This document shows, piece after piece, positions 13,290-54,901 of a stretch of 64,000 bases of DNA; position 1 is the first letter of the stretch; each line of letters starts with the position of its first letter. The stretch comes from Actinomycetota bacterium (GTDB lineage Bacteria > Actinomycetota > Actinomycetes > S36-B12). A model generated the notes under the pieces. That model was not told where the DNA came from. It did no database searches and saw only the letters and a program-made list of their open reading frames with translations. The stretch is taken from positions 1-64,000 of the forward strand of contig VGCC01000003.1 in assembly GCA_016870195.1 (NCBI GenBank), read 5' to 3'. The position numbers and the translations under genes were made by a program.

Positions 13290-13575
13290 GTGACTCACCC
13301 CCGGGGCACCCCGCTGAAGAATCCGCGGTCCTGGGCATCCCTCCTGCTCGGTGCAGTTGCCCTCGGAACCGGTTTGGCCTGGATGTTGGCCGCCGCATGG
13401 GGGGTCGCCCCGCTCGACGCGTTCATCGCAGGAGTGGCCGAACGCACCGGACTGACCGTGGGAACGGTGATCATCCTCATGTCGAGTGTTTTCCTGGCCG
13501 GGATCTTCCTGCTCAGATCACGTCCGGGCTGGGGGACGCTCATCGCATTCGTCGGCGTCGGGGTCATCATCGACA
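13290..13575 (+). pseudogene. YczE/YitT-type integral membrane protein, N-terminal half (split by island)
   Basis: From a GTG at 13290 preceded by AGAAGGG, the protein reads 'SWASLLLGAVALGTGLAW', 'WGVAPLDAFIAGVAERTGLTVG', 'RPGWGTLIAFVGVGVIID' and then breaks into unrelated sequence. The family has two similar membrane halves in about 200-215 residues; only the first is here. The second half is found at 54590-54901 in the same orientation. The ORF continues to 13784 but only as read-through overlapping the next gene. This marks the left end of the catabolic island. Confidence 0.75.
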
Positions 13576-13617
13576 AGCAGACTTGCAGGGGTGCCAAATG
13601 GCAACTGAATCCCTATC

Positions 13618-13635
13618 GCTCACACTTGTGTGAGC
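13618..13635. promoter_or_regulatory. Perfect palindrome upstream of aldehyde dehydrogenase gene
   Basis: GCTCACACTTGTGTGAGC, an 8-bp inverted repeat with a two-base centre, 58 bases before the start codon. Its size suits a dimeric repressor of the GntR or IclR kind, or a short hairpin. No regulator gene is adjacent. It differs from the LacI-type operators elsewhere in the island. Confidence 0.45.
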
Positions 13636-13692
13636 ATCTATCCCTGATAGTCAGATCGTCACCGCACATTACGCCGATGGAAGGAAATGACG

Positions 13693-15087
13693 ATGGTTTC
13701 CCCTTATGGAACTCAGTCCTCGGTTCAGCTGGTCGTGGAACGGGCACGAGGGGCGCAGGATCGCTGGTGGGGTGCCGCGCCTAGCGAGCGAGCGACGGCC
13801 ATTGAGGCGATCGCTGATGAGGTGGATCGTCACGTCGAGGAGCTTGCGCAGACAGCCAACGAGGAAACCCACCTGGGTATGCCCAGACTCACGGGCGAGG
13901 TGGCCCGCACGACCTTCCAACTTCGAATGTTCGCAGGGGCGCTGCGAGCGGGGTCAATTCTGAATGCTCAGTCCGAGGCGTCGGTTCCCGGACCGCCTCC
14001 GCAGGGGCATCCCGCTATCACGCGACGTTATGTGCCGATTGGAGTGGTGGCCATCTTCGGAGCGAGCAACTTCCCCTTCGCTTTTGGAGTGGTCGGCGGG
14101 GACACGGCCTCAGCCTTAGCGGCCGGCTGCGCGGTGGTTGTCAAGGAGCACCCCGGGCACCCACGCTTGAGTCAGAGACTTCTGACGCTCGCGCGCTCGG
14201 CCCTCGCCTCCATCGAAGCTCCAGAAGACCTCGTCGGTTCAGTCGCGGGAATCCAGGAAGGAATCGAACTCGTCGGTGCCCCGGGTGTTCGTGCCGTCGG
14301 GTTCACTGGGTCACTAGCCGCCGGCCGCGCTTTGCACGACGTCGCCGCGAGGCGGCCTGATCCGATCCCCTTCTTTGGCGAGCTCAGCAGTCTCAACCCC
14401 GTCGTCATTACTCCTGAAGCTGCGCGCACCAGATCCGAGGAGATCGCTGCGGGGTTCGTGGAGTCAATGACTTTGGGAGCCGGTCAGTTCTGTACCAAAC
14501 CCGCAGTCCTCATTGCACCCACGAGCGCCGGGTTGGCGGAGAAGGCCATTGCGTTGCTCGAAGGTCTTCCGGGCATGACGCTTCTAACTCCGGACATCGC
14601 GGCCCGGTACTATCAAGGGATAGCGACGTTTGTCGGCCGACCGGAGTTGAAGGTCTCGTCATCCAGTACCACCTCGGACGGTCAGGTGACCGCGACCATA
14701 ATCGAATCTACTCTCGAAGAGTTCTTGAACCCGGATAGTCCCGTCCGTCACGAGTGCTTCGGACCCAGTGCGGTCATCGTGACATACGAGGATCCTCGCC
14801 AGGCTCTGGAAGTCTTGAACATTGACGAGGGAGTCCTCGTCGGGTGCGTGCATGGTGTCGATGGCGAGGAGATCGCAGCGGACTTCTTGCACGCGTTAGA
14901 GCGTCGTGCTGGTCGAGTGGTTTGGAACGGCTGGCCCACGGGCGTGGCAGTCGCTGGCGCTCAGATGCACGGTGGCCCCTGGCCAGCGTCCACGCAAAGC
15001 GTCCACACTTCAGTTGGTTTGAATGCCGTCTACCGCTTTGCCCGCCCGGTGGCCTTGCAGGACTGGCCATCGTGGGTCGAAGTGTAA
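13693..15087 (+). CDS. Aldehyde dehydrogenase, alpha-ketoglutarate-semialdehyde type
   Basis: 464 residues; the ATG at 13693 is preferred over 13687, which touches the AAGGAA ribosome site. Characteristic stretches are 'IFGASNFPFAFGVVGGDTAS', 'GCAVVVKEHPGHPRLS', 'GFTGSLAAGRALHDVAARRP', the general-base region 'FFGELSSLNPVVI' and the catalytic cysteine in 'GAGQFCTKP'. These are hallmarks of the 2,5-dioxopentanoate (ketoglutarate semialdehyde) dehydrogenase branch used in oxidative pentose, hexarate and hydroxyproline pathways. It would oxidise the semialdehyde made from sugar-acid dehydratases in the island to 2-oxoglutarate with NAD(P). It is the first gene of the island, with a palindrome in its leader. 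Confidence 0.85.
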   Translation: MVSPYGTQSSVQLVVERARGAQDRWWGAAPSERATAIEAIADEVDRHVEELAQTANEETHLGMPRLTGEVARTTFQLRMFAGALRAGSILNAQSEASVPGPPPQGHPAITRRYVPIGVVAIFGASNFPFAFGVVGGDTASALAAGCAVVVKEHPGHPRLSQRLLTLARSALASIEAPEDLVGSVAGIQEGIELVGAPGVRAVGFTGSLAAGRALHDVAARRPDPIPFFGELSSLNPVVITPEAARTRSEEIAAGFVESMTLGAGQFCTKPAVLIAPTSAGLAEKAIALLEGLPGMTLLTPDIAARYYQGIATFVGRPELKVSSSSTTSDGQVTATIIESTLEEFLNPDSPVRHECFGPSAVIVTYEDPRQALEVLNIDEGVLVGCVHGVDGEEIAADFLHALERRAGRVVWNGWPTGVAVAGAQMHGGPWPASTQSVHTSVGLNAVYRFARPVALQDWPSWVEV

Positions 15088-15113
15088 AGACGGCCTCAGC
15101 CATATCCAATCTG

Positions 15114-15341
15114 GTGGACGCGGAAGGCCGACGAGTTTGGACGCGAGAAGCACCTCAACGGCACGCGATCATCAACGGAGACTTGTCGGGCGCATTGTTG
15201 GTCCCCGTTATATCGACGCTTGAGCAGGATTACAGAGTTGTGACGTTAGATCTCAAGGTACCGGCGTATTCATCGCTGCAGTCTTTGAGCGTCCATGTCG
15301 GCGACCCGGTGACGATCGACAAAGGAAGGGATCGTCTCTGA
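15114..15341 (+). CDS. Short unrecognised reading frame after the aldehyde dehydrogenase
   Basis: From a GTG at 15114, 75 residues including 'PQRHAIINGDLSGALLVPVI' and 'VGDPVTIDKGRDRL'. The composition is protein-like, unlike the upstream frame inside the dehydrogenase gene, so this may be the C-terminal remnant of a lost enzyme gene rather than a whole gene. I do not recognise the family. No clear ribosome site is seen. Confidence 0.3.
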   Translation: MDAEGRRVWTREAPQRHAIINGDLSGALLVPVISTLEQDYRVVTLDLKVPAYSSLQSLSVHVGDPVTIDKGRDRL

Positions 15342-15534
15342 AGTGTGGGCAATGGTCACCGAACACCAAACCTCGATCCCGACTGGCTTGATTCGCGCGC
15401 GTCCCCCCTGCTGTCGCGTGGAACACGTGGAGAGCACCCGCAGGTTGTGGGCGCCTCGGGACTCTTCATGAACGGGGCATCACCTAACTGAGAACGGGCT
15501 TCTCCGGATAAAAGTTGAGCGGCACGGGTTCATC

Positions 15535-16044
15535 TCAACTCGGAGGACATGAGGGTGCTGTGTCAGACCACTGCCTTGCGTGCAGAGGACAAAGTCTGGG
15601 CGATCTGCGGCGACGTCCGAGATGAAAGCATGCACGGCCGGCATGCTGTTGACCTAAATCGCTCGACACCTCGAACCTGCAGGCGCCCAGTCTGCGCTGA
15701 TACGATCGCCAACCAGTGGGGGACACCCTTCTTGCGGTTCCGTCAGCCAGAATCACCGCCAGGTTCTCGGCCACTACGCAGCAGTCGAATCGCATCCCTA
15801 CAACAGCATTCGCACCGAGTTGTCTGGTGTGCTCCGTCATCCGTTCGATCGCTTGTTCACGTGCCCGATCAATCAAAGCGGTGTAGTGCCGCACCTCGGC
15901 AACGTGCAGAGCCTCGGCCCCGCCTGTGAACCCCTTGGCGACGCGGACACTGCGCGCCGGGATGCCTCAACAAAGTCCGAAATACTGATTGACCTCATGG
16001 CCAGGTATGTCGAAGGCCGCGACCGCCAACACATCACCTCGCAT
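15535..16044 (-). pseudogene. YbjQ/UPF0145 family protein with an in-frame TGA
   Basis: From the ATG at 16044 the frame reads 'MRGDVLAVAAFDIPGHEVNQ', 'YFGLC', TGA at 15967-15969, then 'GIPARSVRVAKGFTGGAEAL' and 'YTALIDRAREQAIERM', 'LGANAVVGMRFDCC', 'LADGTA'. This follows the YbjQ/UPF0145 (putative heavy-metal-binding) family from end to end, where an arginine codon (CGA) commonly stands at the stop position. After 'DGTA' the sequence becomes arginine-rich and no longer family-like, so the 3' end is also changed. The ORF track lists only the part after 15894. Judged inactive. Confidence 0.65.
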
Positions 16045-16451
16045 AGTTGAGTATGGCACTCGTTCAGGACGTCGGCTGCTCATCCATCAACTGGACCCGC
16101 ACCTGTCTATCACCCATGCAGGCCCCAAAACGAAGAATCAACGTGCGACAAATGGAAATCTGTCCGCTAGGGGTTCAGAATCGTGTTTAGGCTCTTGTCA
16201 GTATTCGACTCACTGTACGGGAGCGCTGGCCCGACTTGAATGTGACGAAGTACGTGAGGAACATACGGTCACCAGTGCCCAAACCACGTCGTTCGCGTCA
16301 AATCCTCAACGACTACTAGAGCCCGCTGCTTGAGCCAGTCAATGTTTTGCGTAGTCCTATAGCTGTCGTGTGACCAATACATCTTTGTTCCCCGCGTCAT
16401 GTTAGCCGAGAATCAACAAGGCCTCTATGAGATCCAACCCCTTCACAATCC
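16045..16451. other. Intergenic stretch without a recognisable gene
   Basis: Short ORFs here have no family-like sequence or ribosome sites. I see no RNA gene or repeat. The right end leads into the promoter at 16452. Confidence 0.5.
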
Positions 16452-16494: not shown

Positions 16495-16511
16495 GAATTC
16501 TGGAGGTGGCT

Positions 16512-17648
16512 GTGGAGACGCCGTGTAGTGACGTCCCAGACCTCACGATCGAACGGATTGAGACCACTGCAATCCGAGTTCCTTTGGATCGCGTTTATCA
16601 GGGAAGTCACTACAAGATGACTCACCGATCCACGATAGTCACCAGACTTCACACCCGCAGTGGGCTGGTCGGAGAGGCTTACGTGGGTGACGAAGACGCT
16701 GGGCTCAAGGAAATCGTGGGCATCATTCGTCAAGAGATAGTGCCGCGACTGATAGGCAGTGATGCTTTCGCGGTCGAGCGATGCTGGGAAATAGCGAGAC
16801 CGGCCACCTGGGACATCCTGCGCGATCGCCGGCTGGGGCTCGTGGCGACCGCCTGCATCGACGCTGCGATCTGGGATGTCATCGGTCGCGCGCTTCAAAT
16901 GCCACTTTGGCGATTGTGGGGTGGATACCGGAAGCAGGTTCCCGTTATCACTATAGGGGGCTACTACGCCGAGAATGCGAACATCGAAGCCGAGGTGAGC
17001 AATCTCGTTGAGGAACAGTTTGCCGGCATGAAGTTCAAAGTTGGCGGTCTGACACCAAGAGAGGATGCGACGCGGGTTCAACGGGCTCGGCGTGCCGCGG
17101 GAGATGATTTCGCCCTTGCCGTCGATGCCAACCAAGGTTGGACTCCAAGCGAAGCGATTGAGTTCGCGCGTCGCGTCCAAGACTGCAACTTGCTTTGGTT
17201 CGAAGAGCCATGTCAATGGCACAACGATCGTCGCGCAATGCGTGACGTGCGGCTCGGCGCGGGGATTCCCGTGTGTGCTGGGCAGTCGGAGTTGTCAGCT
17301 GCCGGCTGCCGTGATCTTATGGAAGTGGGATCTATCGACTACTGCAATTTCGATAGTTCATGGTCCGGCGGACCAACTGAGTGGCGTCGAGTTGCAGGGA
17401 TGGCGGCGGTCTACGACGTCAAGATGGCTCACCATGAAGAGGCTCACATCGCGGGACATCTTCTTGCGTCAATCCCACACGGGACTTTCCTGGAATTGTT
17501 TCATCCACAGCGTGACCCCATTTGGCACAGCCTCGTGGTCAATCGCCCAAAGCTTGAGAATGGGTTCATGAGTTTGCCCAGTGCGCCGGGCCTCGGCTGG
17601 GAACTGGACGCTGACTACATTCGCAAGTATGAAATTGAGGGATTGTGA
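16512..17648 (+). CDS. Enolase-superfamily enzyme, mandelate racemase subgroup (copy A)
   Basis: 378 residues from the GTG at 16512, five bases after GGAGG; the upstream GTG at 16506 overlaps that site. The subgroup pattern is clear: a KxK-type base in 'GMKFKVGGL', first metal ligand in 'AVDANQGW', second in 'LWFEEPCQWH', third in 'CAGQSEL', and a late 'AHHEEAHIAGHLL' histidine region. Such enzymes abstract the alpha proton of a carboxylate and either racemise or dehydrate a sugar acid. It is about half identical by eye to the product at 21455, so the two probably act on related acids. It heads a unit with the E1/lipoyl cassette. Confidence 0.85.
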   Translation: METPCSDVPDLTIERIETTAIRVPLDRVYQGSHYKMTHRSTIVTRLHTRSGLVGEAYVGDEDAGLKEIVGIIRQEIVPRLIGSDAFAVERCWEIARPATWDILRDRRLGLVATACIDAAIWDVIGRALQMPLWRLWGGYRKQVPVITIGGYYAENANIEAEVSNLVEEQFAGMKFKVGGLTPREDATRVQRARRAAGDDFALAVDANQGWTPSEAIEFARRVQDCNLLWFEEPCQWHNDRRAMRDVRLGAGIPVCAGQSELSAAGCRDLMEVGSIDYCNFDSSWSGGPTEWRRVAGMAAVYDVKMAHHEEAHIAGHLLASIPHGTFLELFHPQRDPIWHSLVVNRPKLENGFMSLPSAPGLGWELDADYIRKYEIEGL

Positions 17649-17717
17649 AGCACAACCACCGAGAACACACTTGCGACGATCTGTGAGTGCGAATTCAGGA
17701 ACGAGGTTTACTTGGTT

Positions 17718-18734
17718 ATGGGCAGTATGAGAATGAATCAGGCGATTGCCACGGCGCTTGCTGAAGAAATGCGGGAGAATTCGTCTGTGATTGTCATGGG
17801 CGAGGACGTGGCCGATGCCGGTGGCCCATTCAAGACCTCTGAAGGGCTCCTCAAGGAGTTCGGCCCAAAACGTGTGCGGGATACGCCAATTTCCGAGATG
17901 GGCTTCACCGGAGCAGCAGTAGGTGCTGCCGCATTAGGACTTCGACCGGTGGTTGAAATCATGTTCGTCGAGTTCCTCGGTGTCGCCCTGGATGCCGTTG
18001 TGACGGAAGCGGCGAAGTTTCGATACCTGAGTCAGGGGCAGGTATCTTGTCCAATGGTCGTTCGAGCATCGATTGGCAGTGGGCTGGGTTTTGGTTGCCA
18101 ACACAGCCAGACTTTGGAGAATTGGGTAGCCGCTACGCCGGGGCTGAAGGTGGCGTGTCCAAGCGATCCGCAGTCTGCCTACGGCTTGCTAAAGGCGGCA
18201 ATTCGCGATCCCGATCCAGTTATCTTTCTTGAGCCCCGTGCGTTGTATGCGAGCCGCGGAGAAGTGGTGACGGGTCCGGACGGCCTGCTCGAACTGGGAC
18301 GGGCACGCATCGCGCGTGAAGGAACGAAGGCTACCGTCGTTACGCTTGGAAGGACCACGAGCCTGACTCGCGCAGCTGCCCAGCAGGCGAATCTAGATAT
18401 CGAAATCATCGACCTTCTTTCCCTGGTTCCTTGGGATGTCAAGACCGTATGCGCATCAGTCAAGAGGACCGGGCGGTTAGTTGTAATTGAAGAAGCGCCG
18501 CATTCGGGAGGATGGGGATCGGAAATCATCTCAACTATCACGGCCCAAGCATTTGCATCACTGGACGCAGCACCATTTCGCATTACCGCCCCTGATGTAC
18601 CCGTTCCCTATCAACGGGATCTCGAGGCCCTCTACTTGCCTTCGGAGTCGGAGATCGTGAGGCAGTTGGAGTCCTACCTCGTCACGGGTGTGGTACCGCA
18701 GCCTTGGTGGACGCAGGAAGGGATTGCACGATGA
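17718..18734 (+). CDS. TPP-dependent 2-oxoacid/acetoin dehydrogenase E1 component, beta subunit
   Basis: 338 residues from the ATG at 17718 (the TTG at 17712 is also possible; GAGG lies upstream of both). It follows the E1-beta pattern: 'NQAIATALAEEMREN', 'VIVMGEDVADAGGPFKTSEG', 'RVRDTPISEMGFTGAAVGAA', 'KVACPSDPQSAYGLLKAAIR', 'DLLSLVPWDVKTV' and 'GRLVVIEEAPHSGGWGSEI'. E1-beta pairs with E1-alpha, whose gene overlaps by ATGA. The pair decarboxylates a 2-oxoacid, or cleaves an acetoin-like ketol, on thiamine diphosphate and passes the acyl unit to a lipoyl group. The real substrate is unknown; the enolase-superfamily neighbour suggests a product of sugar-acid dehydration. Confidence 0.9.
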   Translation: MGSMRMNQAIATALAEEMRENSSVIVMGEDVADAGGPFKTSEGLLKEFGPKRVRDTPISEMGFTGAAVGAAALGLRPVVEIMFVEFLGVALDAVVTEAAKFRYLSQGQVSCPMVVRASIGSGLGFGCQHSQTLENWVAATPGLKVACPSDPQSAYGLLKAAIRDPDPVIFLEPRALYASRGEVVTGPDGLLELGRARIAREGTKATVVTLGRTTSLTRAAAQQANLDIEIIDLLSLVPWDVKTVCASVKRTGRLVVIEEAPHSGGWGSEIISTITAQAFASLDAAPFRITAPDVPVPYQRDLEALYLPSESEIVRQLESYLVTGVVPQPWWTQEGIAR

Positions 18735-19738
18735 GCCAGATGACTATGACGCCAGTTCAGCGTCGCGACGTCTTACGGGATGACCCACTCGCTCAGTACT
18801 CTCGAATGCTGGAGATTCGCCATTTCGAAGAACTGGTCAACGAGCTCTTCGCCCAAGGTGAGATCCACGGGACGACCCATCTGTGTCTTGGTCAAGAAGC
18901 TCTGGCTGTAGGAATAGCCGCCGAATTGCCTACAGATCATGCCGTCGCAGCGACGTACCGTGGTCACGGCGTGGCGCTGGCTTTGGGTATGACGCCGCAA
19001 GTTGTGTTGGCGGAAATCATGGGCCGTTCGGCTGGATGCGTCGGTGGTGTGGGTGGTTCCATGCATCTTTGCGACATGAGCGTCGGGCTGCTCCCAACCT
19101 CGGCAATAATCGGCGCGGGAATACCCATCGCTGCCGGGGCTGCCCTGGCTTACCAGACGCTAGAAGAGCAGTCAGTCGCGGTAGCCATCTTCGGTGACGG
19201 CGCTGCGAACATCGGGGCCTTCCATGAAGGTCTCAACCTCGCTGCTGTGTGGAAGTTGCCGGTCGTGTTCGTGATCGACAACAACGTCTATGGAGAGTAT
19301 TCGAGAATTGATCGTACGACTCCATTCGAGGACCTGCATCTCCGGTCTGCCTCATATGGGATACCTGGCGTCACGGTGGATGGAATGGATTCCGATCTAG
19401 TGCAAGACACGATGAGGGTCGCTCTCGAGCGAGCCAGGAATGGACAAGGGCCCACCTTGATCGAGGCCAAGACTTATCGGTTTGCCGGGCATTCACGTGC
19501 CGATACGGCGCCATATCGTCCCGAAGGTGAACTAGAGCAGTGGAAGAAGAGGGACCCTTTACTGGTTACGAAGCAGCGACTGCTGAAAAAGGGTGCGGCA
19601 TCTGAGGATCAGTTAGATCAACTCGAAGCGACGATCAAGGAAGAACTCGAATCCGTGTTGGACGAGGTGAGGAGCCTTCCTTCCCCGAATCCGGCGGCCA
19701 TGTTTGATCACATTTACGCCGAGCAGGTGAGCGTTTGA
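18731..19738 (+). CDS. TPP-dependent 2-oxoacid/acetoin dehydrogenase E1 component, alpha subunit
   Basis: 335 residues; the ATG at 18731 overlaps the E1-beta stop, ten codons inside the ORF-track start. The thiamine-diphosphate motif runs from 'FGDGAANIGAFHEGLNLAAV' to 'FVIDNNVYGEYS' (GDG to NN). 'GSMHLCDMSVGLLPTSAII' and 'ETYRFAGHSRAD'-like sequence ('EAKTYRFAGHSRADTAPYRP') match the phosphorylation-loop region of E1-alpha. The order beta-alpha-lipoyl is reversed from the commoner alpha-beta. No E2 acyltransferase or E3 gene lies in the island. Confidence 0.9.
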   Translation: MSQMTMTPVQRRDVLRDDPLAQYSRMLEIRHFEELVNELFAQGEIHGTTHLCLGQEALAVGIAAELPTDHAVAATYRGHGVALALGMTPQVVLAEIMGRSAGCVGGVGGSMHLCDMSVGLLPTSAIIGAGIPIAAGAALAYQTLEEQSVAVAIFGDGAANIGAFHEGLNLAAVWKLPVVFVIDNNVYGEYSRIDRTTPFEDLHLRSASYGIPGVTVDGMDSDLVQDTMRVALERARNGQGPTLIEAKTYRFAGHSRADTAPYRPEGELEQWKKRDPLLVTKQRLLKKGAASEDQLDQLEATIKEELESVLDEVRSLPSPNPAAMFDHIYAEQVSV

Positions 19739-20011: not shown

Positions 20012-21034
20012 TCAGGAAAATAGTGGCTGAGTGCTGTCACGAGCTGCGTACTCCGTGGGAAGTGTGACCGTGTGGGCGGGTGCACCTGCAAGCATCTCAA
20101 GCACCATTGTGGCCGAGACACTTCCCATCTCAAAAGGATCGCGGGTCACGACGCTGATACTAGGTCGGGATACGCGTAGCCAGGGGAGGTCGTCGCAGAC
20201 AACCAAAGAGACGTCTCGACCGGGCAGCATCGATAACTCGTCCAGAGCCTCGAGTATTCCCGAAGTGGTTTGAACGCCCCCAGCAATGAGAGCGGTTGGA
20301 CGTATACTTCGATTGTCACTGAGCAGTTCGATTGTTTGCGAACGCGCGAATGAGGCGGAGAAGACCTGGGCGATCATGGTCGCAGAGGAACTGTCGATGC
20401 CAGCTTCCTCGAAGGCCTCCATGAACCCACGAAGGCGCTCTCGTGTAGGACGAATGTCTTGAGTGCCGGTGATGAAGGCGATTCGCCTGTGGCCGAGTGA
20501 CAGCAGATCCTTGGTGGCTGCCTTAACTCCGCTTGCGTGATCTAGTAAGACTCGGCCGGTGGAGAGTCGATTGAATTCGCGGTCGAGCAAAACGACGGGG
20601 CGTCCGAAGGACTTGATCGCCTTTCGAGTGGCCATGCTCTTGTCGCTCACGGTTGCGAGAAGAATCGCGTCGACCCGTCGTTGACGAAGCATTCGGATTC
20701 TCTCAACCTCTTGCGATATATCTCGACCACTACTTGTAACGAGTAGTGTGTAGTCGGCTATGCTCAACACGCTCTCGATTCCCGTTATGACCTCTGCGAA
20801 GAACGGCGTAGAATAGTCGCGCACAATCAGGCCAACAGCACGAGTCGTCCCGCTTCGCAGACCCTGGGCAACAGGATCTGGCTGGTAGCCGAGTTCCCGA
20901 ACAGCACGCTCAACTTTGGCGCGCATGGCGTCGCTTACGTCAGGGTGATTACTCAAGACGCGAGATACTGAGGAGACAGCGACTCCCGCCCTGTTCGCGA
21001 CGTCATGAATGGTCACCACCCGGTCCTGCGTCAC
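20012..21034 (-). CDS. LacI-family transcriptional regulator
   Basis: 340 residues. The N-terminal HTH is textbook ('TIHDVANRAGVAVSSVSRVLS', hinge 'GYQPDPVAQGLRSGTTRAVG'), followed by a periplasmic-binding-protein-like effector domain ('PFFAEVITGIESVL', 'GHRRIAFITGTQDIRPTRERLRGF', 'ISVVTRDPFEMGSVSATMV'). It lies convergent to the E1/lipoyl unit and divergent from the gene at 21455. The four LacI-type operators in the island, two with an identical 13-base core, make it the likely repressor of the sugar-acid genes and the importer. The inducer would be a sugar or sugar acid taken up by the ABC system. Confidence 0.9.
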   Translation of the reverse strand: MTQDRVVTIHDVANRAGVAVSSVSRVLSNHPDVSDAMRAKVERAVRELGYQPDPVAQGLRSGTTRAVGLIVRDYSTPFFAEVITGIESVLSIADYTLLVTSSGRDISQEVERIRMLRQRRVDAILLATVSDKSMATRKAIKSFGRPVVLLDREFNRLSTGRVLLDHASGVKAATKDLLSLGHRRIAFITGTQDIRPTRERLRGFMEAFEEAGIDSSSATMIAQVFSASFARSQTIELLSDNRSIRPTALIAGGVQTTSGILEALDELSMLPGRDVSLVVCDDLPWLRVSRPSISVVTRDPFEMGSVSATMVLEMLAGAPAHTVTLPTEYAARDSTQPLFS

Positions 21035-21454: not shown

Positions 21455-22588
21455 TTGGATTGGATTCCTGTGGCACTGATAGAGCGAATCGAGACAATTC
21501 CACTCACTGTTCCGCTCCAGCACGTTTACAAAGGCAGTTACTACAAGATGCGGAATCGCTGCACCATCATCACAAGAATCCACACCTCGGAGGGTGTTGT
21601 CGGTGAGGCCTACAACGCCGATACGGATGAGGAGCAACCCGAGGTTCTCTCCATCATCAACGAAGAGATCTCGCCACTGGTGATCGGTCTTGATGTCCGG
21701 CAGGTTGAGCGCTGCTGGGAGGCCATGTTGGTCACAACGCTTGACCAGTTGCGAGATCGACGGCTGCCCATGCAGGCGATCGCCTGTGTGGATAGCGCAA
21801 TTTGGGATGCCGTGGGAAAGTTGGCAGGCGAGCCCTTGTGGCGACTTTGGGGTGGCTATCGAGATCGCATTCCCATGATTGGGATAGGTGGCTACTACGG
21901 TACGAGTGAAGCCGACTTGGAGCGAGAGCTGGCGTTCTTTAAGGATGAGCAGGGCATGGTCGGCATGAAATTCAAGATCGGCGCGAAGCCCCCTGAAGAG
22001 GATGCAAGGCGGCTTCGAATCGCTCGCGACATTGTGGGTCCGGACTTCATTTTCGTCGTCGATGCTAATCAGGGGTATCGAGTCAGCGAGGCACTGGCTT
22101 TCCTGGCAGCATTGGACGACGACATCAGTCTGCGGTGGTTTGAGGAACCGACTAGGTGGCATGCCGATTGGCGTGGGCTTCGCGATGTTCGACTGCGTGG
22201 CAACGTCAACGTGGCGGCGGGTCAAAGCGAGATAAGTCGAGTTGGCATGCGCGAGATGCTCGTCAGCGGTGCCGTCGATGTGGTGAACTACGACGCTTCC
22301 TGGGGTGGTGGTCCAACGGAGTGGCGCCGAGTCGCTGCTTTGGCGGCGGCCTTCGAAGCACAAGTAGGCCACCATGAGGAGGCACAAGTCGCGTCTCACC
22401 TCCTGGCGTCGGTACCGCACGGCACTTATGTGGAGGCATTCTCTCCAACGCGAGACCCGATCTTCTGGGGGCTTCTCGCTAACCGACCATCCCTGCTTCA
22501 GGGTGACTTCGTTCTTCGGGACGAGCCCGGGTTCGGGTGGGTGCTCGATGAAGATTTCATTGGACAGTACAGAACGGATCGGGATTAG
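21455..22588 (+). CDS. Enolase-superfamily enzyme, mandelate racemase subgroup (copy B)
   Basis: 377 residues from TTG at 21455; a GTG at 21470 is an alternative and no clear ribosome site settles it. Motifs parallel copy A: 'GMKFKIGAKPP', 'VVDANQGYR', 'RWFEEPTRWHADWRG', 'AAGQSEISR', 'GHHEEAQVASHLL' and 'GPTEWRRVAALAAAF'. The operator just upstream puts it under the island's LacI-type control. It probably performs the same kind of reaction (sugar-acid dehydration, cycloisomerisation or epimerisation) on a related substrate as copy A. The next gene follows after 54 bases. Confidence 0.85.
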   Translation: MDWIPVALIERIETIPLTVPLQHVYKGSYYKMRNRCTIITRIHTSEGVVGEAYNADTDEEQPEVLSIINEEISPLVIGLDVRQVERCWEAMLVTTLDQLRDRRLPMQAIACVDSAIWDAVGKLAGEPLWRLWGGYRDRIPMIGIGGYYGTSEADLERELAFFKDEQGMVGMKFKIGAKPPEEDARRLRIARDIVGPDFIFVVDANQGYRVSEALAFLAALDDDISLRWFEEPTRWHADWRGLRDVRLRGNVNVAAGQSEISRVGMREMLVSGAVDVVNYDASWGGGPTEWRRVAALAAAFEAQVGHHEEAQVASHLLASVPHGTYVEAFSPTRDPIFWGLLANRPSLLQGDFVLRDEPGFGWVLDEDFIGQYRTDRD

Positions 22589-22642: not shown

Positions 22643-23584
22643 ATGATCTCCGTATCAGTCTACGGTAATGGTCAATTGGCGAATGGAATTGCCGACTTGC
22701 TTCGGACCCGAAAGCGTCACCTTGTTAGCGGACCCTTCACCAGAGACGAACGTATCGAGGCTCTGACTTCGGCTGCAGACGTGGTCATCATCGCGACGAC
22801 GACGAGGTTACGCGACGTTTGGGAGGACGTGCTCCTAGCCGTGCGATCTGGATCTAATGTCTTGGTGAGTGCAGAGGAATCGGCGAATCCGTGGCTTGTT
22901 GATATGGAGATCGCCGATGCTTTGGATCATGAGGCGAAGCAAGCCGGGGTATCAATTCTGGGTGCGGGACTAAACCCCGGGCTTATCTTCGATGCTCTTG
23001 TGCTGACTCTTCTGGGAGCAGCTCCTGACGACGTACTGATCGATGTCCGTCGAGTCGTCGACATTTCCGGATTTGGCACGACCGTGCAGCGACGGCTGGG
23101 AATCGGATTCACGGCACAGGAGTTCTCAGACAGAGTGCGCGAGGGCAAAGTGCTAGGGCACGCCGGCTTCCCCCAGTCGATCTCGGTTGTTGGAAGAGCC
23201 CTGGGACGCCCGGTCACGAGAATCGAACCCGAAATGTCGCCGGTCTTCGTGGACCAGCCCATCGCTCTCGCTGATGGTTCGACCATTACATCTGACCTCA
23301 GTAGTGGTGTGGACCAGACCTATCGCGCATTTGAAGACGGTGTGTGTTGGTATACCGCGCGCTTCCTCGGTCATGTCGCGCTCGACCAAATCGAACAGGC
23401 ACCCCGAGACACGATCACTCTTCTTCGCAGAGGAGAGGTATACCAAGAAATTGACATAACACCGGCGTTTCAGCCGCAAATCGGCTCTCGCCACATGCTT
23501 GCGAACTCAATTGACAGGGTTTTCAACGCTACGCCAGGCTGGTTGACGGTTGCTGATCTTCCTCCAGCTAGCCTGCGCCATTAG
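22643..23584 (+). CDS. DapB/diaminopentanoate-dehydrogenase-like NAD(P) oxidoreductase
   Basis: 313 residues. It opens with a Rossmann-type nucleotide site ('VSVYGNGQLANGIADLL'), then 'VVIIATTTRLRDVWEDVL', 'SAEESANPWLVD' and 'GVSILGAGLNPGLIFDALVL'. This is the pattern of dihydrodipicolinate-reductase-like proteins that include 2,4-diaminopentanoate dehydrogenase. Such enzymes reduce or oxidise imine/amine carbons using NAD(P). Its presence between an enolase-superfamily enzyme and a zinc dehydrogenase suggests a nitrogen-containing or 2-oxo sugar intermediate, which is inference. It appears co-transcribed with copy B. Confidence 0.65.
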   Translation: MISVSVYGNGQLANGIADLLRTRKRHLVSGPFTRDERIEALTSAADVVIIATTTRLRDVWEDVLLAVRSGSNVLVSAEESANPWLVDMEIADALDHEAKQAGVSILGAGLNPGLIFDALVLTLLGAAPDDVLIDVRRVVDISGFGTTVQRRLGIGFTAQEFSDRVREGKVLGHAGFPQSISVVGRALGRPVTRIEPEMSPVFVDQPIALADGSTITSDLSSGVDQTYRAFEDGVCWYTARFLGHVALDQIEQAPRDTITLLRRGEVYQEIDITPAFQPQIGSRHMLANSIDRVFNATPGWLTVADLPPASLRH

Positions 23585-44645: not shown

Positions 44646-44647
44646 TG

Positions 44648-46456: not shown

Positions 46457-47367
46457 AGGCTGATTCGTTCCTAGTCGATCTCCTGACTGATCAGGTAGTG
46501 CCGGCAAGTCAGGCACGTTTTCCCGACGGGGCCCACTTCCGAACGGAGATTCCCAGTGTCGAGGGACCGGCTATCCTCGAAGTGGTCCTGGAGACGGCAG
46601 ATCAGTACGGAGTGGTGATCAATCGTGTCAGCCAGGGATCGGGTGCCATGTTGCATTCGCAAGCCGAGTTGCGTGCGATGGCCGAGATTAGTGCCGAACG
46701 CGGCCTGGAAGTGTCCCTTTTCGTCGGCCCACGCAATGCCTGGTCGATCGGTGGTGCCACACATGCTGCCGACGGTCCGGTCTTCGGATCACAGTTACGA
46801 GGCATGCGTCAACTGCGATACGGTGTCGAAGACGTGTTGCGCGCCGTGGAGTGCGGTATTCGCGGTTTCCTTATCGCAGATCTCGGTCTTCTCGACACGT
46901 TGGTGAATATGCAATCGACCGGCGACCTGCCATCTGACATCTGCTGGAAGATCTCCGTCATGATGGCGCCTACGAACCCCGCATCCTTCCGACACCTCGT
47001 GCGTTCAGGAGCTGGCACGATTAACGTGCCGGCAGATCTCAGTCTTGAGGAGCTCGCGGAGCTTCGTCATGCATCGAATGTTCCCATCGATCTCTACATA
47101 GAGGCGCCGGATTCACTTGGGGGCGTGGTGAGAGGCAATGAGATCGCCGACATCGTCGCGGTTAGCTCACCCGTCTACGTCAAATTCGGGTTGCGGAATT
47201 CCCGGAGTTTGTATCCCAGCGGCCTGCACCTTCAGTCGGAAGCGGAGATGATCGCCCGTGAGAAGGTACGTCGCGCGGCGGTAGCTTTGGAGTGGCTGGA
47301 GCGCCTAGGGGGAGATATTCGCCAGTCGTCGCCGTTTGCCGAAGGTTTGGCGATAGCCAAACCATGA
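46453..47367 (+). CDS. TIM-barrel protein, possibly U32-peptidase-like
   Basis: 304 residues, ATGA overlap with hyuB and with the next gene. Alternating strand/helix pattern: 'AILEVVLETADQYGVVINRV', 'GLEVSLFVGPRNAWSIGGAT', 'RAVECGIRGFLIADLGLLDT', 'RHLVRSGAGTINVPADLSLE', 'VPIDLYIEAPDSLGGVVRGN' and 'PVYVKFGLRNSRSLYPSG'. The 'ALERGIRGFLIADLG'-type strand and the barrel arrangement recall collagenase-like U32 proteins, but the characteristic cysteines of that family are not evident. Function unknown. Strict coupling between HyuB and a dehydratase suggests a catabolic enzyme rather than a peptidase. Confidence 0.5.
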   Translation: MKADSFLVDLLTDQVVPASQARFPDGAHFRTEIPSVEGPAILEVVLETADQYGVVINRVSQGSGAMLHSQAELRAMAEISAERGLEVSLFVGPRNAWSIGGATHAADGPVFGSQLRGMRQLRYGVEDVLRAVECGIRGFLIADLGLLDTLVNMQSTGDLPSDICWKISVMMAPTNPASFRHLVRSGAGTINVPADLSLEELAELRHASNVPIDLYIEAPDSLGGVVRGNEIADIVAVSSPVYVKFGLRNSRSLYPSGLHLQSEAEMIAREKVRRAAVALEWLERLGGDIRQSSPFAEGLAIAKP

Positions 47368-49112
47368 CGGGCCACGGGATGTTCGGCATACCTCTGCGCA
47401 GTGACATGTGGGTGGTTGGTGCCGACGAGGTTGCCTTGAGCCACCGGGTTGCACTCCGATCGGGCACCTCGGAGAGAGACTTGAGCGGTGGGCGCCCCAT
47501 TATCGGAATCGCCGACACATCGTCCGACCTCAATCCCTGCAACCTGCCTCTGGCGGATCTCATCCCAGCCATCGAAGAGGGAATCAGGTCTGCAGGCGGT
47601 GTCCCAGCTCGCTTCCCAGTCATGTCTCTCGGTGAAGACCTGATGAAGCCGACCGCTCTGCTGTATCGGAACCTCGCCGCCATCGAGGTCGAGGAAATGG
47701 TGAGATCCAATCCGATCGACGGTCTTGTGTTGCTGGCGAATTGCGACAAGACCACGCCCGCGTTGCTCATGGGAGCTGCGAGCGCCGATGTTCCCAGCAT
47801 CACCGTCTTCGGTGGAGCCCGGCCCGCATCGAAGTTCCAGGGTCGTGAACTTGCCACGGGAACCGACCTGTGGCGGATGCTCGATAGTTACCGAGCGGGC
47901 CAGTTGTCCGAAGCTGAGTGGTCTGAGTTCGAACAGTGTCTGTCTTGCGGAAACGGATCCTGCAACGCCATGGGTACCGCCTCGACCATGGCGATTCTCA
48001 CGGAGACACTTGGCATGTGTCTGCCGGGAAGCTCCACGATTCCTGCTGGTCACCCCGACGCGTATGTCAATGCTCACGCTAGCGGCGAGCGCATCGTTTC
48101 GATGGTCCGCGAGGGCCTGCGACCGCGCGACATCATGACGGAAGAAGCGTTTTCGAATGCACGTATCATCCTTCAGGCAATCGCGGGATCAACGAACGCC
48201 GTCATTCACTTGCCAGCCATTGCTGGACGACTCGGCATACGTTGGCCACTTTCGGAGTGGACGCGGTCCGGCGAAGGCGTTCCCGTGCTTGCCGATGTTC
48301 AACCGAGTGGAAGAAAGCGTATCCAGCAGTTCCACGCCTCGGGCGGTGTGCCCGTTCTCCTCAATCAACTCAAAGACCTACTCGAGCTGGGCACCGTCGG
48401 AGCCGGTGGCGTCTTGAGTGAGACGCTCGCATCCGCTCCGGCCAAGCCACTTTCCGACGCCATCCGAACTCGGGAGAATCCTCTGCTAGAGGGACCCGCC
48501 ATTGCGGTTGTGTTCGGTTCGTTGGCGCCGGATGGTGCGGTGATCAAGCGAAGTGCCGCGTCGTCCCAACTCCTGATCCACACCGGTCCCGCGGTGGTAT
48601 TCCGGGACTACGCGGACATGCGAGCGCGTCTGGATGATCCCACGATCGACATCCAGGAAAATGCAGTTCTCGTTCTGGCCGGCTGCGGACCCGTCAATGT
48701 GCCGGGAATGCCCGAGTGGGGGATGATGCCGATTCCACAGCGCCTACTCGACCGCGGTGTGACCGACATGGTCAGGATCAGTGACGGGCGTATGAGCGGG
48801 ACGTCCTTCGGGACCGTCGTCCTGCACGTTGCGCCCGAAGCAGGAGTCGGGGGACCATTAGGACTGGTGAGGGACGGAGACCTCGTCGAATTGAACGTGC
48901 CGGAAGGCGAACTCAATCTCCTAGTGGGCGAAGAAGAGTTGCATCGCCGACGATCTCGATGGAGACAGGACGTGGCGCTTCACGAGCGGGGCTGGCCGGT
49001 CCTCTTTCAACGGCATGTGCTCCAGGCGCCTCAGGGATGTGATCTCGATTTTCTCGTCGCGCCATCGAATGACTTCCCTGAACGCATCGACCCCGTCATC
49101 GGTAGATCGTGA
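47364..49112 (+). CDS. IlvD/Edd-family dehydratase (sugar-acid dehydratase type)
   Basis: 582 residues from the ATG at 47364 (ATGA overlap); the ORF-track start at 47292 is out of context. Cluster and metal motifs: 'IGIADTSSDLNPCNLPL' (first cysteine), 'VLLANCDKTTPALLMGAA' (second), 'CLSCGNGSCNAMGTASTMAI' (third), then 'AGSTNAVIHLPAIAG' and 'VRISDGRMSGTSFGTVVLHV'. This matches the [2Fe-2S]-type branch that includes L-arabonate and D-xylonate dehydratases more than amino-acid IlvD. The product would be a 2-oxo-3-deoxy acid, feeding the ketoglutarate-semialdehyde route at 13693. Confidence 0.85.
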   Translation: MTGHGMFGIPLRSDMWVVGADEVALSHRVALRSGTSERDLSGGRPIIGIADTSSDLNPCNLPLADLIPAIEEGIRSAGGVPARFPVMSLGEDLMKPTALLYRNLAAIEVEEMVRSNPIDGLVLLANCDKTTPALLMGAASADVPSITVFGGARPASKFQGRELATGTDLWRMLDSYRAGQLSEAEWSEFEQCLSCGNGSCNAMGTASTMAILTETLGMCLPGSSTIPAGHPDAYVNAHASGERIVSMVREGLRPRDIMTEEAFSNARIILQAIAGSTNAVIHLPAIAGRLGIRWPLSEWTRSGEGVPVLADVQPSGRKRIQQFHASGGVPVLLNQLKDLLELGTVGAGGVLSETLASAPAKPLSDAIRTRENPLLEGPAIAVVFGSLAPDGAVIKRSAASSQLLIHTGPAVVFRDYADMRARLDDPTIDIQENAVLVLAGCGPVNVPGMPEWGMMPIPQRLLDRGVTDMVRISDGRMSGTSFGTVVLHVAPEAGVGGPLGLVRDGDLVELNVPEGELNLLVGEEELHRRRSRWRQDVALHERGWPVLFQRHVLQAPQGCDLDFLVAPSNDFPERIDPVIGRS

Positions 49113-49295: not shown

Positions 49296-50459
49296 ATGCG
49301 AGTAACCGGAGTTCGAACCTTTCTCGTCAACGCTCGTTTGCGGAATTGGTTGTTCGTCAGAGTCGACACCGACGTCCCGGGACTCTTCGGCCTGGGTGAG
49401 GCCACACTGGAGTTTCAATCGGCGGCGGTTGCCGCCTGCGTCGAGGAACTTGCGGAAATCGTGATCGGATCCAATCCATGTCACGTCTCACGGGCGTGGG
49501 AACATCTGTACCGGTACCCCTTCTTCAAGGGTGGAACGGTAACGATGTCGGCCATTAGCGGCATCGATCAGGCCCTTCATGACATCGCCGCCAAGAGTCT
49601 GGGAGTTCCCCTCTGGCAGTATCTCGGGGGTCTAGTGCGTGATCGCGTCCGCATGTACGACCACGTGGGAGGCGGAAACTCTGATGCCGTCTACGGAGGT
49701 ATGGAGGACGGACTGGCGGAGCGCATACACGAAAGCAAGCAAGACGGTTTCAACGCGATAAAGATACTTGCGATCCCGCGATCCCGGCCAATCGACGGTA
49801 TCGCCCCACTGCGCGCTGCCGAACGGGCAATGGCAGTCGCACGGGAAGCAGCAGGGCCAGACATGGACATAATGGTTGATTTTCATGGACGCACCTCTCC
49901 TGCGATGGGTCTTCAATTCGCAAAGATGCTGGAACAGTTCTCCCCTCTCTTCATCGAGGAGGTCGTTGGACCGGAGTTGCCCGCGACCGAAATGGCACGC
50001 GTTACCCGCGGCACGACGATCCCGGTGGCGGCTGGTGAACGATTGCTCCATCGTGAGCAGTTCCTTCCACTCCTGAACGCTCGGGCGATATCAGTGGCGC
50101 AACCGGATGTATGTCACGCGGGCGGGATCACGGAGACGATGCGAATCGGTGCTTTGTGCGGGACATTCGGGGTGGTGTTGGCACCGCACAATCCCTTGGG
50201 TCCGATCGCCACCATGGTCAACATCCATATCGGTTTCGCATTGCCGAACTTCCTGATCCAGGAAGTCATGCGTTCGGATGTCCCATGGCGGGAGGAGGTC
50301 GTATCCGGAGTCGCCCCCATCGTCGATGGCCACGTGCTGCCCCCGACCCAGCCAGGTATCGGGGTTGAGATCGATGAGTCCAAGGCCGCTAAACATCCCT
50401 ATGTCGCGAGTATGCCGGTGCGCTGGGTACACGAAGACGGAGGTACCGCGGAATGGTGA
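49296..50459 (+). CDS. Enolase-superfamily dehydratase, D-galactonate dehydratase-like (copy F)
   Basis: 387 residues, ATG preceded by GAGGAG. The first metal-ligand strand reads 'MVDFHGRTSPAMG', as in galactonate dehydratases (DFHGR), followed by 'PLFIEEVVGPEL', 'PVAAGERLLHREQFLPLLN', 'VAQPDVCHAGGITETMRIG' and 'LAPHNPLGPIATMVNIHIG'. 'DGFNAIKILAIPRSRP' holds the KxL-type base region. Likely substrates are D-galactonate or another aldonate. It stands alone, 183 bases after the IlvD-type gene, with no clear LacI-type operator nearby. Confidence 0.85.
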   Translation: MRVTGVRTFLVNARLRNWLFVRVDTDVPGLFGLGEATLEFQSAAVAACVEELAEIVIGSNPCHVSRAWEHLYRYPFFKGGTVTMSAISGIDQALHDIAAKSLGVPLWQYLGGLVRDRVRMYDHVGGGNSDAVYGGMEDGLAERIHESKQDGFNAIKILAIPRSRPIDGIAPLRAAERAMAVAREAAGPDMDIMVDFHGRTSPAMGLQFAKMLEQFSPLFIEEVVGPELPATEMARVTRGTTIPVAAGERLLHREQFLPLLNARAISVAQPDVCHAGGITETMRIGALCGTFGVVLAPHNPLGPIATMVNIHIGFALPNFLIQEVMRSDVPWREEVVSGVAPIVDGHVLPPTQPGIGVEIDESKAAKHPYVASMPVRWVHEDGGTAEW

Positions 50460-50712: not shown

Positions 50713-53573
50713 GTGAGCGAGTTGGTTGCCCATGGTTCCGCAGGCGCTCACCTGCTTGAGGAGAGCGCGCGCCTTGACTCGAATCCCGACGGTGAAGTTG
50801 GCAGCATCATCAGTCAGGCATATGCGCGCGACGCATCGCACTTCCTGCTAGTGCCCAAGGAGGTGCATTTCCCCGATTCCGTTGAAGAAGTAGTCCGTAT
50901 CTTCCACCTGGCCAAAGTCACACGAGAGCCGGTCACTTTTCGATCTGGCGGCTCCAGTCTGAGTGGCCAAGGTGTCACGAGGGCGACACTGCTCGATACA
51001 AGGAAGCACTTCGGTCGAGCGACAGTCCTGGACGACGGTCGCCGAATCCGCGTGGAGCCCGGCGTAACCATCCGTTACGCCAACGTCCTACTCCAGCGTT
51101 ATCGCAATCGGCTCGTTCCTGACCCTGCCAGCGAGATCGCCTGCACAATGGGTGGAGCGCTTGCGAACAACTCCAGCGGGATGACGTGCGGGACGGAATT
51201 TAACGCTTACAAGAGGCTGGAATCGATGGTTTTCGTCCTTCCCTCGGGCACCGTCATCGACACCTCGGCACCCGAGGCGCGTGATCGGTCCGTGTCGAGG
51301 AGCCGGAAATCTATAGTGGACTTCTGTCCTTGAGAGACCGGATCAGGAGCAATCCGCATTCCGTGTCCGAGATTGAGCGACTCTTCTCCATCAAGAATAC
51401 GATGGGGTACTCGATCAACACCTTCGTTGACTTCGATGATCCTGTCGACATCTTGTGTCACCTACTGATCAGCAGTGAAGGGACTTTGGGTTTCATTGCG
51501 TCGGCAGTGCTTCGATCCGTGCCGATACCCGGCTTCACCTCTACCGCGTTAGCCGTCCTTCCGTCGCTCGCGACCGCAAGCGACGCACTGCAGGACCTAA
51601 CTGCAACGAGGTGTCGTGCTATCGAACTCATGGATGCTCGAGCAATACGGGTGGCAAGCCAAGCAACGGACGCATCGGAACTGCTTCCCGCACTCGACCT
51701 GGGTAGTGAGGCCGTCCTGCTTTTCGAGATTGCCGGTGAATCCCCGGAGGAATTGCGATCGAATGTCGCCGACGTAGAGTCGGTCATCGCCAGATCCCGG
51801 GCCACTCGGTTCTTGGTGGCCCCGGATACCGCATCCGAGAACAGGATTTGGCGGGCACGCAAGGGCTTGTACGCATTGGTTGCCTTAGCTCGACCTCAAG
51901 GCACGTCAGCACTACTCGAAGACGTCGCCGTTCCCATGCATCGTCTGGCACAGACCTGCTCGGGGCTTTCGAACTTGCTGGAGGAGTTCCATTACCGCGA
52001 TAGCGTCATGTTCGGCCACGCACGCTATGGAAACCTGCACTTCCTGCTCAGCGAGAACTTCGCATCCTCCTCGGGACTCGACCGATATGCCCGCTTCACC
52101 GAGCGGCTAGTCGATCTGGTTCTTGACAACAGGGGCACCCTCAAGGCCGAGCACGGCACGGGCCGAGTGATGGCGCCTTATCTGGAGCGTAAATACGGCC
52201 CTGAATTGTTGTCCGTGATGGTTGAAGTCAAGCGGCTCATCGATCCTCACGGCATCCTCAATCCCGACGTAATCATCTCCCAAGATCCCCTGATCCACCT
52301 CAAGGATCTGAAGACGATGCCACCGGTCGAAGAAGTCGTAGATCGATGCGTGGATTGTGGCTTCTGTGAACCCGTGTGTCCGAGTCGAAAGTTCACTACG
52401 ACTCCTCGACAGAGAATGGCCATCCGACGAGCAATGTCACTCGCGCGGGAATCCGGGAATACCGAGCTCCTTGATTCCCTGGGGGTGGAATCGTCGCTCG
52501 AGGTCGTCGATAGTTGCGCAGTCGATGGCATGTGCAGCACCGTCTGCCCGCTAGGAATCAACACCGGCACGTTAGTCGAGCAGTTGCGTCAAGAGCGCAA
52601 CTCCAGAGCCGAACAACGGCTGGGGGTATGGGGAGCCGATCACTGGGGCCTGAATGCCGCATTGGTTTCATTCGGCATCACTGTTTCACGGAGGATCCCC
52701 CGGCTCACCAGCCGGCTTGCGACTAAGGCGCGCCTGGTGACCTCGAGTTCGAAGATCCCTCGAGTCGACGAGGACCTACCCCGAGGCGGCCACCCTCGTA
52801 GGCCTGTCCGTGCAGACAATCCAGAGATCATTTACTTGCCTTCGTGCATGAACACCTTGTTCTCCGCTCCGGAGAACTCCATGGGTGTGAGTCGTTCCTT
52901 CCTAGCCCTTTGTCGCGAAGCGGGCATCTCCGTGCGGATACCGACAGGAATCGACGAACTCTGTTGTGGCACCCCGTGGAAACCTAAGGGTCTGGATCGG
53001 GGCTATCGACGTATGCGAGAGTCTGTGCGCAGCACGGTGGTCCGTGAGACGAGAGAGGGCGAGATCCCGTTGGTGACCGACGCCAGTTCGTGCACTGAGG
53101 GATTCATAAAGTCTCTCGAAGGCCTTGATCTCCCATCTGCTAGCAACATCAGAGTTTTCGACGTCGTCTCCTTTACCGTCTACGAATTGATGCCGCGACT
53201 GCCGAAGGTGGAGCGTAAGTTCGACTCGCTAGCTCTGCATCCCACCTGTTTGATCATCCGGCTTGGTTTGGAGCAGGACCTCAAAGAACTTACCTCAGAG
53301 GTGGCCCACAGGACGATGATCCCGAATGCCTGGGGGTGCTGTGCATTCGCTGGCGATAGGGGACTGCTGGTCCCAGGCCTTACACGAGCGGCCACCGAGG
53401 ATCAGGCGCACGAAGTCAAAGAAGCAAAGTCCGCGATTCACGCTAGTTGTAACAGAACCTGCGAGATTGGGATGTCACGGGCGACAGGTGAGCCCTACTC
53501 GCACATCCTTGAGTACCTGGCACAAGCACTCGGCATTGAGGTCGACAACTACAGAGAAGGAGCACGCTCATGA
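50713..53573 (+). pseudogene. FAD-linked/Fe-S D-lactate dehydrogenase-like protein, frameshifted
   Basis: Two reading frames make one protein of about 950 residues. The first (to 51333) carries the FAD-binding PCMH domain ('PVTFRSGGSSLSGQGVTRAT', 'PASEIACTMGGALANNSSGM'). The second (from 51330) carries the FAD-oxidase C domain, ferredoxin motifs 'CVDCGFCEPVCPS' and 'CAVDGMCSTVCPLG', and the cysteine-rich CCG domain ('ELCCGTPW', 'GCCAFAGDRG'). Near 51290-51300 one base is missing: the +1 frame reads 'EEPEIYSGLLSLRDRI', which joins the halves. Intact relatives oxidise D-lactate or another 2-hydroxyacid and pass electrons to the membrane pool. All motifs survive, so this may be a sequencing error or a very recent lesion. 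Confidence 0.8.
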
Positions 53574-54430
53574 GAATCGGTCGTTTGGGAAATGTCGGCG
53601 CCGAAAGGCCTATTATCTTCGTGGGATCCGATGGGTACGTCGAAATGGCTGACGTGATCGACGAGGTGAGCGCCGACTTCCTCTCGTCCATGGACGTGCC
53701 ACTGCTCGAGCACGCGGTGGATGCCAAAGACGCAGCCGGCGAGGTAAAGTCACTCAATGACGAACGGATCGGATCGCCGATTACGCAGCCGCATCGAATC
53801 GTGTGTATCGGACTCAATTACGCCGATCACGCGGCCGAATCCGGCATGCCCATCCCCGAAGAGCCAATCGTCTTCAACAAGGCGCCGAACACCCTTGTTG
53901 GTCCGAATGATGACGTGATCATTCCCAAGGCCAGCTCGAAGACCGACTGGGAGGTCGAGCTTGGAATTGTGGTGGGGCAGCGGTGCAGCTACCTGGAGTC
54001 TCCTGTTGAGGCATGGGACCACATTGCCGGCTTCGTCCTTGTCAACGACGTTTCGGAGCGGGAGTTCCAGCTCGAACGAGGGGGTCAATGGGTCAAGGGA
54101 AAGTCGTGTGCCACGTTCAACCCCTGTGGACCGTGGCTGGCGACTGCGGACGAGCTCCCCGATGTCCAGGATCTTGCCATGTGGTTGAACGTGAACGGCG
54201 AGCGCATGCAGTCGGGTTCCACGGCCACCATGATCTTCTCCGCGTCCCATATCGTCTGGTACCTCAGCCAGTTCATGGTTCTGGAGCCGGGGGACCTGAT
54301 CAACACGGGGACGCCACCGGGAGTAGGGATGGGCAAGAGCCCACAGCGCTACCTCAAGCCCGGTGACGTCATGACCCTCGGCATGGACCACCTCGGCACC
54401 CAAAGACAGAAACTCATGCCACACACCTGA
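53570..54430 (+). CDS. Fumarylacetoacetate-hydrolase-family enzyme (diketo-3-deoxy sugar acid hydrolase-like)
   Basis: 286 residues, ATGA overlap with the FAD-oxidase. FAH catalytic region: 'RIVCIGLNYADHAAESGMPI', 'PIVFNKAPNTLVGPNDDVII', metal acids in 'DWEVELGIVVG' and 'LVNDVSEREFQLERGGQW', and 'GDLINTGTPPGVGMG'. The sequence style is that of 2,4-diketo-3-deoxy-L-rhamnonate hydrolases and ureidoglycolate-lyase-like proteins. In that route it would split a diketo acid into pyruvate and lactate, and the preceding lactate-dehydrogenase-like gene would use the lactate. The assignment to this exact substrate is inference. It is the last intact island gene. Confidence 0.85.
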   Translation: MRIGRLGNVGAERPIIFVGSDGYVEMADVIDEVSADFLSSMDVPLLEHAVDAKDAAGEVKSLNDERIGSPITQPHRIVCIGLNYADHAAESGMPIPEEPIVFNKAPNTLVGPNDDVIIPKASSKTDWEVELGIVVGQRCSYLESPVEAWDHIAGFVLVNDVSEREFQLERGGQWVKGKSCATFNPCGPWLATADELPDVQDLAMWLNVNGERMQSGSTATMIFSASHIVWYLSQFMVLEPGDLINTGTPPGVGMGKSPQRYLKPGDVMTLGMDHLGTQRQKLMPHT

Positions 54431-54449
54431 TGCAGAGCATCCCACCTTT

Positions 54450-54594
54450 GCAGGTCCTACCGCAAACTGATCCTGATCCTGACCCGGTTTCACGGACTTG
54501 CTGGGGAGGCGACCAGGCCCAGTGCTGCGTGTTGTATCTCGAACTCGAGTGGTGTCTTCCAGTTGAGGTAGCTGTGTCGTCGGCGAGTGTTGTG
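54450..54594 (-). mobile_element. IS3-family transposase OrfB, 3' end fragment
   Basis: The minus strand from 54594 to the TGA at 54490-54492 reads 'HNTRRRHSYLNWKTPLEFEI' and 'QHAALGLVASPASP'. This is the well-known C-terminal 'NTRRRHS' region of IS3-family integrases. The rest of the element is missing at the side touching the yczE-type half. The terminal end is probably near 54452 (TTGCAGGTCC...). It is a different copy from the one at the left edge of the window as far as can be seen. It marks the right border of the island. Confidence 0.75.
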
Positions 54595-54901
54595 GGCCGT
54601 TGGGTTCGCACTCTTCGCCCTCGTTGTCGTCGGAACACTCGCCTTCGACCTGGGGGCGAATCCCTACGACCACATCACGCGTTCGTTCCACGAACGCTTC
54701 GGGTGGCCATTGTGGGTCTCACGCCTGACGTTCGACGCGGTCATCCTGATCCTGGCATTCCTGGTGGGTGGTGCGTGGGGAGCCGGAACGATCGCGATCC
54801 TCGTCCTGATGCCCCTTGCGCTAGCAGTGGCGACCCCGCGCGTGCGCGCGTGGGTGCACGCGTCCGACGCCTCTGAAGGTCACGTAAGTGATGTCCAGTA
54901 G
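54590..54901 (+). pseudogene. YczE/YitT-type integral membrane protein, C-terminal half (split by island)
   Basis: The frame from about 54590 reads 'LWAVGFALFALVVVGTLAFD', 'LGANPYDHITRSFHERFGWPLW' and 'GGAWGAGTIAILVLMPLALA', ending at 54901. It repeats the domain pattern seen in the N-terminal half at 13290 ('WGVAPLDAFIAGVAERTGLTVG', 'RPGWGTLIAFVGV'), as expected for the internally duplicated YczE-type fold. It has no start region of its own; a GTG at 54587 is fortuitous. Together the halves account for nearly a whole protein. Confidence 0.72.

Follow-up and report, generated by a model that had tools for sequence, protein, structure and literature searches.

The 64,000-nucleotide stretch of DNA analysed here (the window) raises the question whether two fragments of a membrane protein gene, some 41 kb apart on the same strand, are the remains of a single gene and, if so, how the catabolic genes between them arrived. 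The window lies on a 135.6-kb contig (C3) belonging to a draft genome of 2.13 Mb in 87 contigs, for which contamination is estimated at 2.4%. Our preferred reading, which we consider very probable, is that horizontally acquired DNA, present today as a 41-kb island for acid-sugar catabolism (13575–54589), disrupted a YczE-like gene; its joints are imprecise, and an IS3-assisted route is the most likely way of entry. In this uncultured actinobacterium, the destroyed gene thus marks the limits of an acquired catabolic block to within a few bases, and because it is bounded this closely, the time and route of its entry become testable given genomes of close relatives. All features are listed in Table 1.

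Table 1. Features of the island, its joints and its right flank (positions refer to the window).
Feature	Position	Strand	Remarks
5′ part of split YczE-like membrane protein gene	13269–13574	+	~102 codons; from profile and homologue alignment
GACTTGCAGGGG, 11/12 direct repeat of 54495–54506	13580–13591	+	possible remnant of second IS3 end
Aldehyde dehydrogenase (matches include 2,5-dioxovalerate/alpha-ketoglutarate semialdehyde type)	13687–15087	+	GC 63%
Relic region without intact gene	15088–16440		YbjQ-domain fragment, minus strand, ~15535–15891 and upstream
Enolase-superfamily acid-sugar dehydratase (1/6)	16506–17648	+
Pyruvate/acetoin-type dehydrogenase E1 beta and E1 alpha genes	17712–19738	+
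LacI-family regulator	20012–21034	-
Enolase-superfamily dehydratase (2/6)	21455–22588	+
2,4-Diaminopentanoate-dehydrogenase-like protein; Zn-type alcohol dehydrogenase	22643–24646	+
Enolase-superfamily dehydratase (3/6)	24665–25912	-
IclR-family regulator	25786–26610	-	ORF overlaps adjacent ORF; start approximate
Sugar ABC importer: binding protein, RbsC/AraH-type permease, AraG-type double ATPase	27004–30934	+
HyuA/HyuB-type pair 1 (hydantoinase/oxoprolinase, caprolactamase-like)	30980–34845	+
SDR dehydrogenase; D-2-hydroxyacid dehydrogenase; DHDPS-family (KDG-type) aldolase	35051–37686	+
SDR; enolase-superfamily dehydratase 4/6 (rhamnonate-dehydratase-like, start 38462); weak SDR-like protein; enolase-superfamily dehydratase 5/6 (start 40523)	37716–41710	+
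Cupin and Rid-family proteins	41721–42517	+
HyuA/HyuB-type pair 2	42558–46456	+
Uncharacterised protein (marginal peptidase U32 match); IlvD/Edd-family sugar-acid dehydratase	46453–49112	+
Galactonate dehydratase (6/6 enolase-superfamily)	49296–50459	+	above NCBIfam cut-off
GlcD-type FAD-binding protein, then FAD-oxidase/Fe-S protein (glycolate/2-hydroxyacid dehydrogenase type)	50713–53573	+
FAH-family hydrolase	53570–54430	+	best match 2,4-didehydro-3-deoxy-L-rhamnonate hydrolase (below cut-off)
IS3-family 3′ terminal remnant	54473–54590	-	last ~35 transposase codons and terminal repeat, ~117 bp
3′ part of split YczE-like gene	54590–54901	+	~103 codons; stop at 54901
Right flank operon: lyxose-isomerase-like protein, uncharacterised 398-aa protein, lone E1 alpha, class II aldolase, PfkB kinase	55247–60231

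The left half begins with an ATG, with a GTG at 13290 as a possible alternative start. Its similarity to homologues ends at ~13574, from where the frame continues into unrelated sequence up to 13784; on the right, similarity begins at ~54590 and reaches the stop codon. The NCBIfam profile for YczE (NF052291) matches the left half over profile positions 3–84 (E 9e-14), the right half over positions 103–174 (E 7e-7) and the joined halves, with an X between them, over positions 3–174 (E 2e-21). Both halves therefore match the profile in order, but with 76.6 bits, where the equivalog cut-off is 205 bits, the joined protein is a distant relative rather than a YczE equivalog. A Pfam search of the split gene returned no YitT family, so that of the proposed “YczE/YitT-type” protein the second part had to be dropped; since the score is also far under the YczE cut-off, “YczE-like” is the strongest permissible name.

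Two other actinobacterial MAGs contain intact homologues that span both halves in a single frame at 61–73% identity: L022 is 73% identical to the left and 71% to the right part, and L023 (JAGYJJ010000004.1, “Candidatus Nanopelagicales bacterium”) 61% and 64%, respectively. In G021, a relative from the same family, one intact gene spans residues 11–207 of the joined query with 64% identity. At the nucleotide level, the left half matches the L022 slice up to position 365 and the right half from position 440 onwards; the 74 nt in between, ~25 codons, are absent. We therefore rejected a loss-free, precise insertion and describe the event as an insertion combined with a small deletion. The preliminary description had held that the segment could be bounded almost to the base, and the junctions can indeed be placed within a few bases. 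Of 34 relatives from the same family that were searched, only 7 have a clear homologue of the split gene (E < 1e-30), and judging from this sparse occurrence the gene appears to be dispensable.

By these alignments, the two fragments represent the two ends of one YczE-like gene interrupted by the catabolic segment, as had been proposed from the complementary half-proteins. The genome does contain a second, uninterrupted YczE-like gene (C3:72066-72596, ~8 kb past the window), which could suggest that the fragments derive from different paralogues. We regard this as scarcely credible: that gene is just ~30% identical to the split one, whereas both fragments have the same best homologue (71–73%), are complementary without any overlap and are spanned in one frame by the intact gene of a relative. 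Overlapping coverage, as expected of paralogues, was looked for and is absent, and the split of the gene is thus real. It is likewise very unlikely that the arrangement is an assembly chimera. The contig belongs to a fragmented, slightly contaminated and probably metagenome-derived draft, but a chimera would need two independent false joins that both fell in one gene and involved complementary pieces, correctly ordered and oriented.

At the right junction, the minus strand encodes HNTRRRHSYLNWKTPLEFEIQHAALGLVASPASP followed by a stop codon, corresponding to the end of an IS3-type transposase, and then the terminal sequence AAGTCCGTGAAACCGGGTCA. Both a transposase C-terminus and a terminal repeat of the IS3 family, recognised on weak E-values, are thus fused to the gene, in agreement with the earlier observation that an IS3-family 3′ fragment abuts the right half. 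The match to Pfam rve_3 reaches an E-value of only 0.047, and a tblastn search of plasmids listed annotated IS3 transposases among its matches at E 0.08–0.2, values that are weak because the query comprises just 39 residues. The sequence ACAACACTCGCCG occurs exactly in both the remnant and an IS3 element of the Corynebacterium glutamicum plasmid pBL90; this similarity extends to ACAAC and places the joint between gene and IS3 at ~54587–54595, with a few bases shared. The 3′ end of the element points toward the island, its outer end lies approximately at 54473–54480, and the 5′ part and all the remainder are gone. This is the sole copy found in the genome, but a draft in so many contigs may miss repeats such as IS copies. 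DNA searches with the remnant in plasmids, genomes of the order and viral contigs revealed no close relative. Short inverted repeats near this junction were judged to be due to chance.

About 6 bases past the end of gene similarity, the left junction carries GACTTGCAGGGG; the IS3 terminal region contains the matching GACTTGCTGGGG, oriented alike. The pair at 13580 and 54495 is the only 11/12 match in the window, both strands searched. Random stretches of the island equalled the match to the IS end in 11 of 3000 trials, but in a wider test with shuffled sequence the figure was 26 of 500, and the repeat is short and was noticed post hoc. We take it as a hint that the left joint once carried a second IS3 end, now almost erased. 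Inspection of the joints for matching IS ends or target duplications hence yielded this repeat, but no target duplication.

The island is compositionally foreign. Its GC content is 58.5% (0.585 ± 0.012 in 2-kb windows, range 0.566–0.609), compared with 64.7% (0.647 ± 0.018, range 0.599–0.689) across nine stretches sampled elsewhere in the genome (~170 kb in total), so that the composition unlike the host that marks genomic islands is present. GC is even across 16.5 to 54.4 kb, where the genes are closely packed and mainly on one strand. In contrast, the left 2.9 kb are mosaic, since they consist of an aldehyde dehydrogenase gene with 63% GC and a ~1.4-kb non-coding relic with a YbjQ remnant. 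A second low-GC segment (57.8%), harbouring genes for a zinc-uptake ABC transporter and CobW-family proteins, occupies positions 1–9500 of the window, with ~4 kb of higher GC lying between it and the island; as it is equally AT-rich, the island edges cannot be defined by GC alone.

With six enolase-superfamily dehydratases, an importer and regulators, the gene content fairly fits the initial view that the 41 kb are nearly all devoted to sugar-acid catabolism. All enzyme classes of non-phosphorylative acid-sugar pathways are present (dehydratase, KDG-type aldolase or dehydrogenase, FAH hydrolase and semialdehyde dehydrogenase). However, most island proteins score under the curated NCBIfam cut-offs, so that exact substrates cannot be named from the matches; the galactonate dehydratase is the clearest case. 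The encoded proteins would take up a sugar or sugar acid and dehydrate it by one of the several dehydratases, and the resulting 2-keto-3-deoxy acids would then be oxidised, cleaved or hydrolysed. The HyuAB, Rid and diaminopentanoate-dehydrogenase-like genes possibly serve amide or amine functions.

As in known catabolic genomic islands located in chromosomal genes, a catabolic block of foreign composition with its own importer and regulators interrupts a chromosomal gene. It differs from them in that the target is a protein-coding gene, the joints are imprecise, and neither an integrase nor a conjugation gene was seen among the annotated island genes nor a tRNA in the window, and we rejected an integrase-type island for this reason. 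IS3-family composite elements share with this locus an IS3 3′ end at one joint and a similar short sequence at the other. Yet no complete IS3 element is present at either joint and no duplicated target was detected, and the locus can therefore not be named a composite transposon: there is one ~117-bp remnant on the right and only a 12-bp resemblance on the left. The segment is a well-bounded foreign catabolic block inserted in an apparently dispensable gene, and an IS3 element probably aided the insertion. The event is ordinary in kind, a genomic island beside a broken mobile element.

Searches with one island protein each found the whole block in none of 166 genomes of the order, 395 of the class and 397 of the phylum. 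Parts of it do occur elsewhere. A homologue of the 46453–47364 protein is present in 9 of the 166 order genomes, own genome counted, and in several relatives it lies near homologues of the IlvD/Edd, IclR, aldolase and aldehyde dehydrogenase genes (~37–61% identity), which together make up a small sub-module. The protein starting at 22643 has its best match in the phylum sample in a distant member (G829); the 12.6-kb contig concerned (G829:C259, locus L127) encodes E1 alpha and beta, a diaminopentanoate-dehydrogenase-like protein and an alcohol dehydrogenase, together with a homologue (59%) of the dehydratase at 40523. For the 39677 protein, a search of the class sample at E 1e-10 gave no match in any of the 394 other genomes. 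A plasmid source was rejected, the homologues there being merely ~30–41% identical, and literature searches returned nothing on this island.

Both flanks are conserved in the family. The right flank operon is found in G012 and G084 (~51–80%), and the left flank gene, encoding acetolactate decarboxylase, is widespread in the family. In the relatives examined, left flank, right flank and YczE-like gene were never adjacent to one another, and the empty site is therefore established at the gene level only: an uninterrupted gene does exist in relatives, but its neighbours differ from the flanks in the window. The MFS gene 3′ of the L022 homologue has no close match in the genome of the window (best 27%).

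How could the island have entered? An IS3 element would have been located in or beside the YczE-like gene, and foreign DNA with catabolic genes may have come in by recombination through it, followed by deletions in which the IS copies were largely lost. The observed orientation of the repeat is what a Campbell-type entry, with two IS3 copies recombining, would yield. The imprecise joints reflect the loss of ~74 nt of the target gene and of most of the IS3-family element. The repeat and the remnant make the IS-mediated recombination suggested in the preliminary description plausible, but do not prove it. Whether the 41 kb came pre-assembled is another matter. We give just under an even chance to acquisition of the entire block in a single step via IS3-flanked recombination, which agrees with the homogeneous composition over 38 kb and with the IS remnant and direct repeat at the island ends. 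Against it stand the mosaic left end and the lack of an intact block among the order, class and phylum genomes. Alternatively, IS3 broke the gene first and catabolic modules of several sources gathered over time, an account to which we likewise give somewhat less than an even chance. The mosaic left end, several apparent modules (six enolase-superfamily dehydratases and two HyuAB pairs) and the separate sub-modules in relatives, with another in L127, would be expected from such accretion, whereas the even GC and the tight packing mostly on one strand would not. The earlier proposal that the whole cluster arrived as one unit could not be confirmed, given this mosaic end, the short sub-modules and the failure to find a genome with the full cluster. 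We consider it unlikely that the six dehydratase paralogues, both HyuAB pairs and the importer travelled together on IS3 as one unit with no integrase of its own and so provided a small-genome actinobacterial lineage with a broad acid-sugar diet in one step.

The 46453–47364 protein, which has only a marginal U32 match, is conserved and recurs by IlvD/Edd dehydratase genes in relatives.
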